A stretch of DNA of 53,584 nt, taken from NCBI GenBank assembly GCA_027310825.1, contig DAIDAC010000007.1, positions 1-53,584 on the forward strand, read 5' to 3'. Position numbers and translations under genes: made by a program. Source of the DNA: Candidatus Micrarchaeaceae archaeon. GTDB lineage: Archaea; Micrarchaeota; Micrarchaeia; Micrarchaeales; Micrarchaeaceae. The notes below the pieces were generated by a model. The model saw only the letters and a program-made list of their open reading frames with translations, was not told the origin of the DNA and searched no databases. Within the stretch, counting starts at the first letter, position 1. Each line of letters opens with the position of its first letter. Positions 2,793-11,150 of the stretch are shown here, in pieces.

Positions 2793-3269
2793 CTATGCCC
2801 AGACATCGTTGAGCAGCATTATGCCATATGTGGCGTAGTTTATTATATCAAGAAGGGTATCTTCTACTTTTTCGTTGACTACCTTTGCGTCCTTGCCATG
2901 AAGGTTCTCGATTCTCACGAGCTTGTCGTTTATGCGCACTATGACTAGGACGACCCCATAGCTAAGCATGTTGTCCACGCCGTAATCGTGGTTCTTCTCG
3001 ACGCCGAGCTTGAACGCAGTGTCAAGAACAAAATCTTCATCCTTTTTCATCATCGACATTGCGAGAGCCCTCGCCCTCTTCATTGCCTTTATGCCTAGTT
3101 CTTTGTAATCACCATGATTCCACATTGTGTCGAAGACCAGGCGGAGTTCCTTCTGCATTTCCTTGCAGTGCTTAATCGTGTCTCCGTCAACGAACTTCTC
3201 GTCGTTCTTGTAGTCGTAGAGAAACTTGTGAAAATTGCCCGACCATTTGCCGAATTTATTGCCTGCCAT
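2793..3269 (-). CDS. DUF1599-type nucleotide modification associated protein
   Basis: A 158-residue protein. Residues ~100-155 carry the pattern LSYGVVLVIVRINDKLVRIENL followed by VEDTLLDIINYA, characteristic of nucleotide modification associated domain 1 (DUF1599). This domain is common in phages and near nucleotide-metabolism genes and has a MazG-like helical feel. The biochemical role is not settled. It is divergent from dcd, with the two starts about 70 bases apart, and together with dcd, the Dut-like gene and thyX forms a deoxynucleotide cluster. This suggests a role with modified or damaged dNTPs, by inference. Confidence 0.75.
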   Translation of the reverse strand: MAGNKFGKWSGNFHKFLYDYKNDEKFVDGDTIKHCKEMQKELRLVFDTMWNHGDYKELGIKAMKRARALAMSMMKKDEDFVLDTAFKLGVEKNHDYGVDNMLSYGVVLVIVRINDKLVRIENLHGKDAKVVNEKVEDTLLDIINYATYGIMLLNDVWA

Positions 3270-3337
3270 TGAATCCTATGATTATTGGAGAAAGTTTAAT
3301 AATAGTACGGGACAGAATTATTATACAGCGTGGTACA

Positions 3338-3916
3338 ATGATGCTTTCTGACAAGTCCATACGCGAATACATAAAGAGCGGACACATAAAGATAGACCCC
3401 TGCGACCTGGAGCAGCAGCTCGGCACGGTAGGCATGGACCTCAGGCTCAGCGGATCATTCAGACTATTCAAGACAACGCACAAGACATTCATAGACCTGA
3501 CAAAGGAGCATTTCGACACAGATACCGAGCTTATCGAAATTCCGATAGGCGAGCGCTTCATACTGCATCCTGGAGAATTCGTGTTGGGGATGACGATAGA
3601 AAACGTTGAACTTCCGACAAACATAGTAGGAAGGCTTGATGGAAGGTCAAGTTTGGGAAGAATCGGCATCATTGTCCACTCAACAGCTGGAAGAGTTGAT
3701 CCCGGTTGGAAAGGACGACTTACACTTGAAATTAGCAACATCGGAAAGCTGCCGATCGCAATCATCCCTGGAATGAAATTCTGCTACATAACATTCGAAG
3801 AGCTCACTACTCCTGTGGAAAAGGCTTACTCTGGAAAATACATAGGCAGCAAACTGCCTGGAGCTTCGAAGATTGACGAAGAAATGAAGAAATCCTTGGA
3901 GGGAGTAAAGGCCTAG
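3338..3916 (+). CDS. dcd: dCTP deaminase
   Basis: Converts dCTP to dUTP, or to dUMP in bifunctional archaeal forms, feeding dTMP synthesis. The 192-residue length from ATG 3338 (or 191 from 3341) matches the family. It begins MMLSDKSI, whereas the longer frame from 3269 adds a non-conserved leader. The conserved core HSTAGRVDPGWKGRLTLEIS is present, with the catalytic Glu in TLEISN, followed by PGMKFCYITFE. It converges on a paralogue at 3913-4482 with a four-base overlap of the 3' ends. Whether it is mono- or bifunctional cannot be told from sequence alone. Confidence 0.92.
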   Translation: MMLSDKSIREYIKSGHIKIDPCDLEQQLGTVGMDLRLSGSFRLFKTTHKTFIDLTKEHFDTDTELIEIPIGERFILHPGEFVLGMTIENVELPTNIVGRLDGRSSLGRIGIIVHSTAGRVDPGWKGRLTLEISNIGKLPIAIIPGMKFCYITFEELTTPVEKAYSGKYIGSKLPGASKIDEEMKKSLEGVKA

Positions 3917-4482
3917 ATCTGAGTTTCTTTTCCCCCAGTTGCTACTCTTCCGCCTTTCCATTGGCCTTCGTAGGCACGGGCAATCTCACCGACTACTTGG
4001 TGGAAGACTATGTTCGCGATCCTTGCCCCCAATTCAAGCCTGAATGGAACGTTGCTAAGGTTTGTAATTGCGAATGTCAGCTCGCCGGTGTAGCCAGGGT
4101 CTGTTTTTGTCGCCATTAGATAAAGACCGCATCGCTGGAGCGTGCTTCTCGGGTGGACATCTGCCATTAGGTAATAGGGTTCGCCTCCATCAATCGAAAC
4201 TTTGTTGCCAGGCAGGTTGATTTTTTCGATTGTCTTGACAAGAACGTAATCGTGGGGCTTGATAACTACCTCTTTATCCCCTTTCGCTATGCTGGCGATC
4301 AGATTTATGTCTGGGCTCTTTCTTTCTGTCTTGCCAAGGAATCCCTCTCCCTGCAAAACGTAGACCTCTCCTACCCTTATGTCGATTCCTACTCCTTCCG
4401 GATAAGACTCTCGTGCATCAAGGTTCTCCAACAATTTCATCTGCTCGCACAGTTCCAGCACTTTCTTTGACGATAATATCAT
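3913..4482 (-). CDS. dUTPase/dCTP deaminase-family paralogue lacking deaminase Glu
   Basis: A 189-residue member of the Dcd/Dut fold, with VGIDIRVGEVYVL near the N terminus, ADVHPRSTLQRCGLYL, and ATKTDPGYTGELTFAITNL. Where dCTP deaminases have LE(F/I)xN, this protein has FAITN, so the catalytic glutamate of deamination is replaced by Ala. The Asp of the TDPGY motif remains. It may therefore be a dUTPase, or a non-deaminating relative acting on dUTP or a modified nucleotide; that is inference. It lies 4 bases downstream of thyX on the same strand, which fits provision of dUMP to ThyX. Confidence 0.8.
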   Translation of the reverse strand: MILSSKKVLELCEQMKLLENLDARESYPEGVGIDIRVGEVYVLQGEGFLGKTERKSPDINLIASIAKGDKEVVIKPHDYVLVKTIEKINLPGNKVSIDGGEPYYLMADVHPRSTLQRCGLYLMATKTDPGYTGELTFAITNLSNVPFRLELGARIANIVFHQVVGEIARAYEGQWKGGRVATGGKETQI

Positions 4483-6097: not shown

Positions 6098-6239
6098 GGT
6101 ATCACGACATTACTCTGTCGCTTAACTATAAAAAGCTGCTTTGCTGTGATAGGGAATTAAGGAAAAGGGTTTATCAAAAAGCAATAAGCTATACTAGCAG
6201 TAAAGAGTCGAGATATTTACGTTTGCCTATTGCGATTTC

Positions 6240-6345
6240 CTTTCCGGTTCCTTGACGGTTTCGCTGGCCTTCTGCGAGAGAAGTGAGAAAAGCCGGGCGC
6301 CTCCGGTGGAATGATTATGTTCGGAGAAACACAGCCGCCCAGCCT
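6240..6345. other. Possible structured RNA in the thyX/methyltransferase gap
   Basis: The 270-base gap 6098-6371 has no gene. It contains nested complementary segments: GGGCG 6295-6299 with CGCCC 6336-6340, CTCCG 6301-6305 with CGGAG 6322-6326, and a small hairpin CTTCT/AGAAG at 6269-6283. It is more G+C-rich than its flanks, and a TATA-like GTTTATCA lies near 6168 on the plus strand. I could not match it to SRP RNA, RNase P RNA or C/D box RNA. It may be a small RNA or a terminator region. Confidence 0.25.
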
Positions 6346-6371
6346 ATAATATTATACTGCATTCCAGATAC

Positions 6372-7115
6372 TTAAGCCTTCTCCATAATCGCAAAGAACC
6401 TTCCGTCTTTCTTGAAGTTCGGGGAGTCAATGAACTTCGCTACTTTCCAGCCTGTGCCTTTGATTATTTCTTTTACTTCGCCTTTCGATGCGTAGAGCAG
6501 GTCGAACCATGGCGAACAGTATTGCAGGAACCTTATGCGCTGGCGGAGCTGGCCAGGCATCCTTCCCTTTTTAATGTTCGCTTTGTGGTATGCGAAGTGG
6601 ACCGGGTTTTCTGTGATATACGGATCCTTGCTTTCTGCTATGATCGTGCCCTCAGGCCTTGTTATTTTGTAGAACGATTTCAGTATCTTCTTTGCCTTGC
6701 TCCTGCTTTGCAGAAGAGCGAAGCCTATGCCGAAAAGGAGTATGTTGTCGAATCTCCCTTTGCCGAAGCTGACAACTTCTTCTATGCCCATGACCTTTGC
6801 TTTCTTCACTCCTCTTAGTCTGCTGACCTTTACCGCCAATGGCGAGGAGTCTATCGCAGTGACGTCTCTGCCCCTGCTTTGCAGGAATAATGCCACTCGC
6901 CCGGCGCCGCAGCCTATGTCCAGGCAGGTGCTGTCCTCTATGTGCTCTATTGCGATCTTCTCGTGCTTCTTCCAGTGCTTGTAATCCGAGAAATATTCGT
7001 GGGCGCCTACTATCGAAGCCACGAATCCGTCGTCTCTTTCGAATACCTCGAAGCTTGGTTTTCCGAGGTAGTGGTTCATTAGCTCATGCCCTTGCGGGTC
7101 GTCGTTTTTCGTCAT
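6372..7115 (-). CDS. Class I SAM-dependent methyltransferase
   Basis: A 247-residue class I methyltransferase. Motif I is CLDIGCGAGRVALFLQ, followed by DVTAIDSSPLAV with the acidic residue that binds the ribose of SAM, and later NILLFGIGFALL and RPEGTIIAESKDP. The substrate is unknown. I chose the ATG at 7115 because the TATA box CTATTTAAAG (about 7156-7166) predicts transcription from near 7137, after the upstream ATG at 7139. AGGT lies 9 bases before it. The same TATA region also faces the microprotein genes on the other strand, so the two units may be co-regulated. Modification of those peptides is a conceivable but unsupported role. Confidence 0.82.
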   Translation of the reverse strand: MTKNDDPQGHELMNHYLGKPSFEVFERDDGFVASIVGAHEYFSDYKHWKKHEKIAIEHIEDSTCLDIGCGAGRVALFLQSRGRDVTAIDSSPLAVKVSRLRGVKKAKVMGIEEVVSFGKGRFDNILLFGIGFALLQSRSKAKKILKSFYKITRPEGTIIAESKDPYITENPVHFAYHKANIKKGRMPGQLRQRIRFLQYCSPWFDLLYASKGEVKEIIKGTGWKVAKFIDSPNFKKDGRFFAIMEKA

Positions 7116-7153
7116 TAAAACATACCTAGTTAGACACATATCATAGCGAACGA

Positions 7154-7168
7154 AAGCTTTAAATAGGT
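7154..7168. promoter_or_regulatory. Shared divergent TATA region
   Basis: AAGCTTTAAATAGG reads as a TATA element in both directions. It is about 40-50 bases from the methyltransferase ATG (7115) on the left and 35-40 bases from the first microprotein ATG (7201) on the right. Confidence 0.5.
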
Positions 7169-7200
7169 GGCTTCAAAAGTGTACATTATAGAGTGAAATT

Positions 7201-7272
7201 ATGGACAGCTATGAAGCAGGGCTAAGCTATGAAGCTGATTCCAGCAATGACTCAGAAGGCACTCTGTATTGA
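7201..7272 (+). CDS. YEAD microprotein 1 (23 aa)
   Basis: The first of three tandem short frames. It encodes MDSYEAGLSYEAD followed by SSNDSEGTLY and TGA. It holds the YEA motif twice and ends in EGxxY like the next two. GTGAAATT precedes the ATG, and a TATA box lies at about 7156-7166. The peptide is acidic, with no membrane segment or known domain. Function is unknown. Confidence rests on three in-line copies sharing start context and both peptide ends. Confidence 0.6.
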   Translation: MDSYEAGLSYEADSSNDSEGTLY

Positions 7273-7288
7273 TGTTTAAGTGATACAA

Positions 7289-7354
7289 ATGAACAACTGT
7301 TATGAAGCAGACGATGCACCACAGCATACTGGTGGCGACGGCGCTACATATTGA
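7289..7354 (+). CDS. YEAD microprotein 2 (21 aa)
   Basis: Encodes MNNCYEADDAPQ followed by HTGGDGATY and TGA. Its start context TTTAAGTGATACAAATGAAC is nearly identical to that of the third copy, giving a GTGAT ribosome site 5 bases before ATG. It shares YEAD at residues 5-8 and the C-terminal (D/E)G(A/T)xY with its neighbours. It contains the only Cys of the set. Function is unknown. Confidence 0.62.
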   Translation: MNNCYEADDAPQHTGGDGATY

Positions 7355-7370
7355 TATTTAAGTGATAAAA

Positions 7371-7436
7371 ATGAACCAGGCATATGAAGCAGACTCAGGT
7401 AAGAAGCAAGAGGAGACAGAAGGCGCTGCGTATTAA
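7371..7436 (+). CDS. YEAD microprotein 3 (21 aa)
   Basis: Encodes MNQAYEADSGKKQEE followed by TEGAAY and TAA. YEAD and EGxxY are in the same places as in copies 1 and 2, while the middle differs completely. The linker from the stop of copy 2 (TATTGATATTTAAGTGATA) repeats the linker between copies 1 and 2. It stops one base before the end of the convergent Lrp-type regulator. Function is unknown. Confidence 0.62.
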   Translation: MNQAYEADSGKKQEETEGAAY

Positions 7437-7437
7437 T

Positions 7438-8961
7438 TCAAATCCTTTTTGGTACTGTCGGCGTTTGGTCTTCATAGTTTACTAACTCTTTTTGTTTAAT
7501 CTTCTTAAGTGAGACAAGAGCCGTGTACTGTCTAGAATAGCTGTTGTCGAAGCGTCTATAACATAGCGTTCCTACAAGTGTTTCTGTTATTATGAGATTT
7601 TCAAATAGTGTCCCGCTTACCGTCCTGTTCAATGTTTCTGTTGTGTTTTCCAATTCATTCTCGCGATAGATTGGTATAAACTGTACGCCACCAGAGTACC
7701 ACCCCACATTACCAGTAAGAACGTATTTGTTCGTTATTGGACCGTATTCGATCGCATCCAAACGTAATTTGTATAAATTGTCGTTCGTTTCTACTGCATT
7801 TACTGTTCGTGATAGAATTATTGCAGTATACTTTATCGGAGGGCTATCCAAGCTTATTGTAGGCCTAACCAACACTCCTCTTCGTTTTAATTCTAGATAA
7901 GAATATCTCGATGCATTACCTTTCCCCCAGCCAAATTCTTCGTCTATCTCTTTGAAATCCTCAGTGCTATTTCTGTTTAATTCACGTATCAATATGAATT
8001 CCCTTGCTCTAAGCTCTCTTTCCTTCAGCGAAGGTTTTCTTGCAACACGTGCCTTTTCGCCCCATGCTTCTACTATGACTTCTGCACGCAGAGGTTTATA
8101 TAAATCTTCGGTATTCTTCTTTTCTGGGAGAAACTTTTCACCACTTGGCCATGTCTTTTTTCTAAGGATATCTTCGATAAACTCTTCTCGTAGAGGCACA
8201 AAAGATTGAACTTGCCCAAACGGTGTAACGTCCCATTGTATACTATAACCTTTCAACTTCTCATTGATCTCGAAATTCCAAAGATCGTCAGCTATTTCCA
8301 GTGACTCTATGTCGTCAAGCCAATAGACAACCATATCGTATGTGCCTTTCAGCAGAGCTGCATATTGAATACGTGGCTCTTTTGTGACAATTTCTCTCAA
8401 CAACTCGGCAGATGGGCGTTTCTCCCCGAATTTTGCCATTATCATATAGGGACGGAAACCCAGTTTTCTTATGTCTACTTCTAGTATGTATCTCATTCCA
8501 TATTTCTCTTCGAAATGACGTATCTTGGTCAACACTGCGGAGCGTGTAAGGCCTGTCCTCTTGGCTATGAATGAAACCGGAGATCTAGCGTTCATGCTGA
8601 GTATTGTAAGGATCTGTTTGTCCGCTTCGGACAAATCTAATTCTCTTCTTAGCTGTTCATGAGAAGCGACATGTGGCTCCTGTGGAGGTGTGACCTGCCA
8701 CCCATGTGCTGTTGCAACTTGCAATGCCCTTTTCAGATTGTTTCCGACCCAACGTTCCGATTTTTTGATGAATGCGCCTCTGCCTGTTATCCTGCCAATA
8801 TATTCCTGTGTAGTTATTACCTTTTTGTTTGCCTTGTCCCACTCGCTGTGCGACTTATAAACATAGTAGTGGCCGTTCAGCTGTCTTAATACTAATGAGG
8901 CATCTGCCGTCTGCTTTACCTTGTCGAACGCCTTTGAAACTGCTTCGGGAAGTCCTTCCAT
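7438..8961 (-). CDS. Lrp/AsnC-type regulator with two HTH domains and unusual N terminus
   Basis: A 507-residue transcription regulator. Residues ~108-160 are an AsnC-type HTH (LSEADKQILTILSMNARSP, then FIAKRTGLTRSAVLTKI), followed by a RAM-like beta-alpha domain (QYAALLKGTYDMVVYW). A second HTH lies near 330-375. The N-terminal ~90 residues have HYYVYKSHSEWDKANKK and EYIGRITGRG, a pattern that reminds me of the N-terminal domain of IS1634/ISNCY-type transposases; this is tentative. The ATG at 8961 is preferred over the GTG at 8976 because the TATA box ATATTTAAATATC (about 8983-8993) predicts transcription from ~8963. A paralogue without the N-terminal part is at 33775-34800. The gene is noticeably A+T-rich. 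Confidence 0.8.
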   Translation of the reverse strand: MEGLPEAVSKAFDKVKQTADASLVLRQLNGHYYVYKSHSEWDKANKKVITTQEYIGRITGRGAFIKKSERWVGNNLKRALQVATAHGWQVTPPQEPHVASHEQLRRELDLSEADKQILTILSMNARSPVSFIAKRTGLTRSAVLTKIRHFEEKYGMRYILEVDIRKLGFRPYMIMAKFGEKRPSAELLREIVTKEPRIQYAALLKGTYDMVVYWLDDIESLEIADDLWNFEINEKLKGYSIQWDVTPFGQVQSFVPLREEFIEDILRKKTWPSGEKFLPEKKNTEDLYKPLRAEVIVEAWGEKARVARKPSLKERELRAREFILIRELNRNSTEDFKEIDEEFGWGKGNASRYSYLELKRRGVLVRPTISLDSPPIKYTAIILSRTVNAVETNDNLYKLRLDAIEYGPITNKYVLTGNVGWYSGGVQFIPIYRENELENTTETLNRTVSGTLFENLIITETLVGTLCYRRFDNSYSRQYTALVSLKKIKQKELVNYEDQTPTVPKRI

Positions 8962-9154
8962 ACTTATATTATACACACTATGATATTTAAATATTTCCTA
9001 AATACATAAATGTATAATTACTTCAGATATACACGTTATTATCTGCTTTTTCTAATCTTTATTTCTTATTTTAATATCAAAAATGCCAATAAATCAAAAA
9101 ACTCAGACTACCCTTAAATACTCTGCCGCCAATATATTTACTCAGGTGAATGGC

Positions 9155-9253
9155 ATGGTGTCAAGGGCTGAAAATATTTCTTCCACCCTTAATGGAAGAT
9201 TCATCCACATCAACGCTCCGCCATCCGTCACCGCTTATGATTTGGGTGTATAA
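9155..9253 (+). CDS. Small ORF, 32 aa, first gene of small-protein operon
   Basis: Encodes MVSRAENISSTLNGRF and then IHINAPPSVTAYDLGV, not recognised. The site GGTGA lies 5 bases before the ATG, ideal spacing, and TATA CTTAAATA at about 9114-9121 is ~25 bases before the expected start of transcription. The overlapping frame from ATG 9150 has GGTGA directly against it and is less likely to be used. The stop is one base before the next ATG (9255), suggesting translational coupling. Confidence 0.5.
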   Translation: MVSRAENISSTLNGRFIHINAPPSVTAYDLGV

Positions 9254-9254
9254 C

Positions 9255-9455
9255 ATGGGTCTGATGGAAGGAATAATGAGAGCAATAGGGGCAGTAGAGA
9301 GCGAGCCATCGTACAAATGCTGGATGTGCCCTGCGGAACACAGCGATGCAGCTGCATTCTTGATTCACATAAGAGGTTGCGACAAGGAGCAGAGATCAAG
9401 ACGTTCGGAAAGCGGTTTTGTCCTTGCGTTTCAGAAGACTGCGAACACGGTTTAG
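9255..9455 (+). CDS. Small protein with C2HC zinc-knuckle motif
   Basis: A 66-residue protein starting MGLMEGIMRAIGAVE. Residues ~22-42 hold C-x2-C-x12-H-x3-C (CWMCPAEHSD then FLIHIRGC), a likely small zinc finger, followed by a basic tail. The ATG at 9255 has GGTGTATAAC before it. It is the second gene of a run of four short genes (9155-9966). RNA or protein binding is the usual job of such fingers; nothing more specific can be said. Confidence 0.6.
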   Translation: MGLMEGIMRAIGAVESEPSYKCWMCPAEHSDAAAFLIHIRGCDKEQRSRRSESGFVLAFQKTANTV

Positions 9456-9472
9456 ATATTTAAGGTGGGTAG

Positions 9473-9763
9473 ATGGAAAAAGAAAACAACACGAAAACTA
9501 GCGGAGCGAAGAAGAAAGCAGCATTGCACAGGTTCTACTTCATAGAGCCGAGGCCGAATGCAGATGCTGAGAAGCTGGCCATGAGCCTGGTGGAGCTGCC
9601 GAATGTGCAGGAGGTGTATCTGACAGAAGGGGACTGCGGCTATATCGTCAAAGCCCGCTTCCATAACGAGAAGGAGCCGAAGGACCTGGTCCGGTACATC
9701 GCAAACAACATAAGCAGCAAGTTCGGGAAGGTGACGAGTTTCGTGCAGTACTCAAAAAGTTGA
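9473..9763 (+). CDS. Small RAM-like protein, copy A1 of duplicated operon
   Basis: A 96-residue protein with a Lys-rich start (TSGAKKKAALHRFYF) and a compact alpha-beta core: PNADAEKLAMSLVELPNV, EVYLTEGDCGYIVKARF, KEPKDLVRYIANNI and FGKVTSFVQY. The layout (strand, helix, strand with G-xxx-Y, strand, helix, strand) resembles the ligand-binding RAM domain of Lrp/AsnC proteins without the HTH. By eye about 75 of 86 core residues match the copy at 36502-36807. GGTGGGTAG precedes the ATG. It is followed by a companion gene that is also duplicated. It may bind a small molecule or pair with an Lrp regulator, by inference. Confidence 0.75.
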   Translation: MEKENNTKTSGAKKKAALHRFYFIEPRPNADAEKLAMSLVELPNVQEVYLTEGDCGYIVKARFHNEKEPKDLVRYIANNISSKFGKVTSFVQYSKS

Positions 9764-9768
9764 CGCTT

Positions 9769-9966
9769 ATGGCAGTCGTCGAAAGCCCGGCAATGTCGCT
9801 TCTTCCGCATGCATTTCTAAGGAGGGAGCCTCTGGTCACACCATCATCCGAGGCTGAGCCGGCTGCCGTAAGGACTGTTCTGGGGCCAAACGATCTGCTT
9901 ATCTTCAAGGTAAGAAGATTGAAGATGTGCGTTGATGGCACTGCTTTAGCACAGAATAAGAAATAG
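9769..9966 (+). CDS. Companion small protein, copy B1 of duplicated operon
   Basis: A 65-residue protein of unknown function. The core RREPLVTPSSEAEPAAVR and a following DLLIFKVRRLK recur in the partner at 36794-36976 (REEPLVTPS, SEPAAVRP, DCLIIKAHRLKK). The ATG at 9769 (MAVVESP) is chosen because it aligns with the MAAVKDI start of the second copy. It lies 5 bases after the stop of A1. In both loci the pair has the same order and spacing, so A and B probably act together. Confidence 0.65.
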   Translation: MAVVESPAMSLLPHAFLRREPLVTPSSEAEPAAVRTVLGPNDLLIFKVRRLKMCVDGTALAQNKK

Positions 9967-10289: not shown

Positions 10290-10421
10290 CTAATCACCTG
10301 CTAACTCCTCATTATTCAGCTTTAAATACCTTGTGCGGCTGGGATTGTATCGCTGTATTGCGGAATTGAGCCAGAAAGCAATAAATACAGATTGGGACAG
10401 AGTCTCTATCAGGGTGAAAAT

Positions 10422-11150
10422 ATGGAAGCTTCATTGACGTTCGCGCCGTTGCCGGAAAGAGTCCGACAGCCCCATACGCATTATGTAGGGGCTACTGGCG
10501 ATAAAGGAGTAAGAATAATACAGTTCGACGGAGATGAAAGCGGCACAAAGCTGTATATAGGCCTAATGCAAACGCCGATAAAAGAATCTGGAAGAGAGAT
10601 GAGAGAAGCATACAGAACTAAATTCGATGGCGGCTCTTCCGGCATTATCACAGTTGAGGCGAAAGATGATGGTTCGTTGTCTGTAACTACTTCCGATAGA
10701 AAGGAAGGTAAGACTGTGCAGGAACCATTCACTGTCGAGTTTTTCTATTTCCACAGAAGCGCATTTGATGAAGCGCACAATACCGGAGTAAAATACAGAG
10801 TTGCAAGAATCAGAGTCTTCGACACGAACATCATAGTCTGCCGTGATCTTGTTGCAAACTTTGTGCTTGAGTTCGCAGTCGATGGTTGGGTAAGACATGT
10901 TGGACTAGGCGGATTCATAGATGAAGGCCCAAGACCTTTCCTTGGAAAAGGCGATCCCACTGCTGACTTGATAAGAGAGCACGATGATCAGCGCAATAGG
11001 GCGTTAGGAAAATTGCGCAAGGAAAAAGAAAGCACAGAAACCGTCAAGACAGTTGATGAAGCAGCAGCCGAAGCCTCTGTATGCACAGGTTTCACACAGG
11101 GTTCCAAGCCAGCAGTTGAACCAGAAAAGAGGCCAGTCCTGATGGACTAG
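10422..11150 (+). CDS. Hypothetical protein, 242 aa
   Basis: Not recognised. The N-terminal ~170 residues look beta-rich (YVGATGDKGVRIIQFDGDES, KLYIGLMQTPIKES, VEFFYFHRSAFDEAH) and could be a jelly-roll or lipocalin-like fold. The last ~70 residues are charged and probably disordered. There is no signal peptide. GGGTGA sits five bases before the ATG at 10422, and TATA AATAAATAC lies at about 10378-10386, so the earlier TTG at 10392 is rejected. Confidence 0.7.
   Translation: MEASLTFAPLPERVRQPHTHYVGATGDKGVRIIQFDGDESGTKLYIGLMQTPIKESGREMREAYRTKFDGGSSGIITVEAKDDGSLSVTTSDRKEGKTVQEPFTVEFFYFHRSAFDEAHNTGVKYRVARIRVFDTNIIVCRDLVANFVLEFAVDGWVRHVGLGGFIDEGPRPFLGKGDPTADLIREHDDQRNRALGKLRKEKESTETVKTVDEAAAEASVCTGFTQGSKPAVEPEKRPVLMD

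Follow-up and report, generated by a model that had tools for sequence, protein, structure and literature searches.

A likely three-gene operon of orphan tandem microproteins with near-identical ends and divergent middles in a Micrarchaeaceae archaeon

Genes of 21 to 23 codons are of a size that escapes annotation. Precursors of the PqqA/mycofactocin type are about 23 amino acids long and carry Glu/Asp-x3-Tyr near the C terminus, and in tandem precursor cassettes of the cyanobactin type diversified cores lie between constant recognition ends. The locus described here consists of three tandem short frames within a window of 53,584 nucleotides (the whole stretch of DNA that was analysed, contig C13 of a 975-kb MAG). 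Relatives of its Thy1 gene in the named collection all come from 'Candidatus Micrarchaeota'. The locus shares with the PqqA/mycofactocin type the length of about 23 amino acids and the Glu/Asp-x3-Tyr near the C terminus, but differs in that no radical-SAM maturase or PqqD is adjacent, the Tyr is the last residue and the sequences match no family. With cyanobactin-type cassettes it has in common constant, recognition-like ends, conservation at the nucleotide level and a variable core; here, however, each unit is a gene of its own and not a cassette within a shared open reading frame, no protease or cyclase lies nearby and the core is hydrophilic. Finally, it resembles taxonomically restricted archaeal microproteins such as those of the Haloferax volcanii small-protein set (PMC10716476), whose genes are likewise very short and translated and in many cases have no known function. 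The peptides of this locus differ in being 21–23 amino acids long, in lacking zinc-finger C(P)xCG motifs and in occurring as a tandem of three paralogues that keep their ends and diverge in the middle.

A first-pass annotation had described three consecutive frames of 23, 21 and 21 codons with YEAD and EGxxY-type ends, a divergently transcribed methyltransferase and a convergent Lrp-type regulator, and all of these are located as claimed:

6372–7139, minus strand: class I SAM-dependent methyltransferase, divergent (Methyltransf_11, E=1.1e-10)
7201–7272, plus strand: microprotein 1, MDSYEAGLSYEADSSNDSEGTLY, 23 codons, codon score 0.097 per codon
7289–7354, plus strand: microprotein 2, MNNCYEADDAPQHTGGDGATY, 21 codons, codon score 0.122 per codon
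7371–7436, plus strand: microprotein 3, MNQAYEADSGKKQEETEGAAY, 21 codons, codon score 0.31 per codon
7438–8976, minus strand: HTH_AsnC-containing protein of 512 amino acids, convergent

The region with the three plus-strand frames fits exactly into the gap that the divergent and convergent genes leave, and ends just short of the latter; the methyltransferase itself probably starts at a downstream ATG, at 7115. As successive frames are each shifted by one frame, they do not constitute a single read-through gene. The tandem pattern occurs in none of 100 dinucleotide shuffles of the window (0/100). Microprotein 1 differs from the simple scheme in holding two YEA motifs, YEAG and YEAD.

Codon and signal statistics were calibrated on 284 kb and 220 long open reading frames of the same genome. 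GTGA, the core of the archaeal Shine-Dalgarno sequence GGTGATC, peaks sharply at position -8 of start codons (24/220 genes), with another 6/220 at -9, so that 13.6% of long genes carry it at one of these two positions versus 0.54% for background. All three microproteins have GTGA at this genome-typical spacing (-8, -9 and -9, respectively), and a TATA box (TTTAWA) is found about 43 nt 5' of the first ATG, inside the TTTAWA peak of the genome (-50 to -30). The predicted signals are:

7160–7167, plus strand: predicted promoter, TATA box TTTAAATA with an A/G-rich BRE-like stretch (CGAAAGC) 5' of the box
7193–7196, plus strand: Shine-Dalgarno core GTGA of microprotein 1 at -8, the genome-wide peak spacing
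7280–7284, plus strand: Shine-Dalgarno GTGAT of microprotein 2 (GTGA at -9), within the 16-nt linker 7273–7288
7362–7366, plus strand: Shine-Dalgarno GTGAT of microprotein 3 (GTGA at -9), within the 16-nt linker 7355–7370
7446–7450 (approximate), plus strand: TTTTT run, a weak candidate for an archaeal U-run terminator

For comparison, TTTTT occurs within 40 nt downstream of 8.3% of genes and in 4.2% of background windows in the genome. The start context thought to be shared by all three frames, TTTAAGTGATA..AAATGAAC, is confined to copies 2 and 3; in its place copy 1 has GAGTGAAATTATGGAC, with the same GTGA core. Similarly, the linkers are indeed near-identical (14/16 positions), but they measure 16 nt from stop to ATG rather than 28; the YEAD codons are what lies 28 nt from the stop.

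All three frames have gene-like codon usage, scoring 0.10, 0.12 and 0.31 per codon where genes average 0.20; the minus-strand frames that overlap them on the same DNA have negative scores (-0.18 to -0.34). Among random triplets of spurious frames the summed score of the three has P = 4e-5, a value in which copies 2 and 3 are not independent since they share sequence, and singly each frame is only moderately unusual, being matched by 2–9% of spurious in-gene frames. The RNA of the region folds no better than its shuffles (z = +0.9), and no Rfam family matches it at E up to 1. Based on the GTGA placement, the codon usage, the TATA box and the lack of a competing RNA structure or Rfam family, the three frames are probably real, translated genes.

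The first-pass annotation had also drawn attention to conserved ends around a variable middle, a description that nucleotide comparison of the copies bears out:

7255–7312, plus strand: repeat block copy A, from the tail of 1 through the linker to the head of 2, 46/58 identical to copy B
7337–7394, plus strand: repeat block copy B, from the tail of 2 through the linker to the head of 3, 46/58 identical to copy A
7313–7336, plus strand: variable middle of microprotein 2, 6/24 identical to the middle of microprotein 3
7395–7418, plus strand: variable middle of microprotein 3, 6/24 identical to the middle of microprotein 2

The tail-linker-head block thus extends over 58 nt at 79% identity, and 24-nt repeats are present in three copies, while between peptides 2 and 3 the identity of the middle is at the random level; this partition would have a probability of 1.8e-8 if divergence were uniform. 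None of the eight conserved sense codons besides Met differs synonymously (P = 0.001, assuming independent codon draws). Because the conserved codons lack synonymous change and copies 2 and 3 are not independent, the ends are seen to be conserved at the level of DNA, which could reflect plain recent duplication and is by itself no proof of selection on the protein. The overall pattern is consistent with ends that were recently duplicated or converted and a middle that was replaced or changed fast. In these sequences, the only apparent sign of protein-level selection is the second YEAD of peptide 1, whose A and D are kept despite two synonymous changes (GCT GAT versus GCA GAC). No further copies of the linker exist in the genome within two mismatches.

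We know of no described family with these features from any of the collections searched, in agreement with the first-pass annotation, and the tandem relatives for which it had proposed to search related genomes were not found. A DNA search of 40 relatives returned only the genome itself, and the peptide pattern had no relative among 85 family genomes and 301 phylum genomes (300 others), given search patterns that fix TAT for the first Tyr of YEA and that strongly recoded relatives could escape. The tandem pattern had zero matches in genome_contigs, a contig set of 85,000 species, and six in viral contigs, none of which was a microprotein pair, which is nothing beyond chance. Pattern matches elsewhere in family genomes were all single and chance-like, and the sole other match in the phylum (genome G046) was a single copy with an in-frame stop and was discarded. 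Two YEAD-like sites in the same genome were likewise set aside, the one on contig C9 lying within a longer reading frame and the one on contig C2 yielding no tandem frames when inspected. A scan of all examined loci for short frames in tandem whose ends are alike recovered only this locus and one pair inside the genes of a viral contig. As far as the searched collections go, the peptides would form an orphan family.

In a sister genome (G002, Thy1 84% identical), the segment corresponding to 6134–9955 is missing and the PRC-barrel gene directly follows Thy1, although absence of the insert is not proved there because a run of N sits exactly at the site. This N gap (contig C42, L112, about 1460–1565) has the same short sequence, TAATGATAAAAAGA, on both flanks. 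In the relatives L147 and L148 (Thy1 65–68% identical), Thy1, DCD and PRC are retained with other genes in between, placing the operon in a variable spot; the peptides were likewise not found in the available DNA of L145 and L146. By gene order, the locus appears to be an insert specific to this lineage, placed between Thy1 and PRC genes that are conserved.

Several other features of the window were observed. A 252-aa protein without a Pfam match (10392–11150) constitutes a second lineage-specific insert and is missing in G002 between the PRC and Rpb4 genes. Two convergent dCTP deaminase-like genes that overlap by 4 nt (3269–3916 and 3913–4482) adjoin the long Thy1-domain protein (536 aa), an arrangement retained in L147 and L148. 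Near the contig end, a tyrosine recombinase of the Phage_integrase family (1781–2548, E=6.7e-13) adjoins a tRNA-Glu gene (2672–2746); tRNA genes are typical integration sites.

Presence in one species only, conservation at the DNA level with zero synonymous change and a variable insert flanked by conserved genes are all compatible with non-functional proto-genes, that is, recently duplicated DNA that is by chance open and translated and has no selected product. We regard this explanation as unlikely, since three separate, correctly spaced Shine-Dalgarno sites and gene-like codon usage speak against it, and near-identical ends next to random-level middles are not expected for duplicated DNA that is drifting.

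The suggestion that the peptides are secreted, signalling or modified gained no positive support. Adjacent to the peptides there is no maturase, protease or exporter, and no transporter was found among the scanned neighbours. Peptides 1–3 have no hydrophobic signal or leader. The genome encodes only two radical-SAM proteins, on contigs C8 and C11, both away from the locus, and no PqqD/RRE domain; none of the three peptides has an NCBIfam match at E up to 1, a search in which such short queries have little power.

The methyltransferase is a member of a broad family of class I enzymes, is 37–49% identical to copies in four other family genomes, where it has unrelated neighbours, and is about 36% identical to copies on Streptomyces plasmids. 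Wherever the flank of an orthologue is readable, no such peptides lie beside it; the orthologue in G048 is at a contig end. In G064 (L069, 5590–7618), the orthologue adjoins a radical-SAM protein whose tail is rich in Cys and looks SPASM-like by eye. The HTH_AsnC protein, a member of a large family of paralogues in Micrarchaeota, is not specific to the peptides, because it has 8 matches in its own genome and relatives in 52/60 family genomes; a further genome, G004, contains 16. Its N-terminal region resembles, by eye only, the N terminus of a transposase. Literature searches on the closest solved methyltransferases and on small proteins of Micrarchaeota returned no papers. Both genes are neighbours of the peptides, and a system shared with them would be putative.

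These observations bear on whether the peptides could be RiPP- or pheromone-type precursors, with ends recognised by a processing enzyme, the middle as a diversified core and the divergent methyltransferase as a possible tailoring enzyme. Several precursor families do consist of short multi-copy genes in which the nucleotide sequence is conserved at the ends and diversified in the core. In addition, the (E/D)-x3-Y tail resembles the Glu-x3-Tyr of PqqA, a SAM methyltransferase is divergent from the peptides, and its orthologue in G064 stands next to the radical-SAM protein. Nevertheless, the lack of adjacent maturation, protease and transport genes, the remote position of both radical-SAM proteins, the lack of PqqD/RRE and of a hydrophobic leader, and the peptide-free flanks of the methyltransferase orthologues lead us to consider precursors unlikely, slightly more so than proto-genes. 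Still less credible is a non-coding element with incidental frames, be it a small RNA or a series of operator sites at which the neighbouring regulator would bind: the repeats do recur about 82 nt apart beside a gene for a DNA-binding protein and a divergent promoter, but most of their length falls far beyond the TATA box on its downstream side, a place in which they would serve no other gene, and codon usage, Shine-Dalgarno placement, shuffle-level RNA structure, the lack of an Rfam match and the absence of other genomic linker copies within two mismatches all argue against it.

We favour a real, translated, orphan three-gene microprotein operon as the likely explanation, and the operon is probably young. 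The three microproteins would be expressed from their own promoter with one Shine-Dalgarno site per gene, and would have originated by local duplication, after which heads, tails and linkers stayed near-identical and the middles diverged. With a pI of about 4 and GRAVY values of -0.9 to -1.5, peptides 1–3 are acidic and very hydrophilic and so are probably soluble and unstructured when alone. Their constant ends would most simply be docking or recognition motifs. As a tentative proposal, and one that we hold with much less confidence than the operon itself, the soluble, acidic peptides may act inside the cell, where the two constant ends, (M..)YEAD at the head and (E/D)GxxY at the tail, would dock on a partner and the middle would serve as spacer or payload.

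Many DPANN archaea are thought to dwell on hosts, and few of their interaction factors are known. A bolder reading, which we think improbable, is that the locus represents a new kind of DPANN tandem micropeptide system, in which head and tail would act as handles and the middle would be under diversifying selection for cell-cell communication or conflict, for example between host and symbiont. For now this is one orphan locus; if the operon is real, its tri-cistronic set of 21–23-residue peptides would offer a compact test case for the origin and diversification of new peptide genes.
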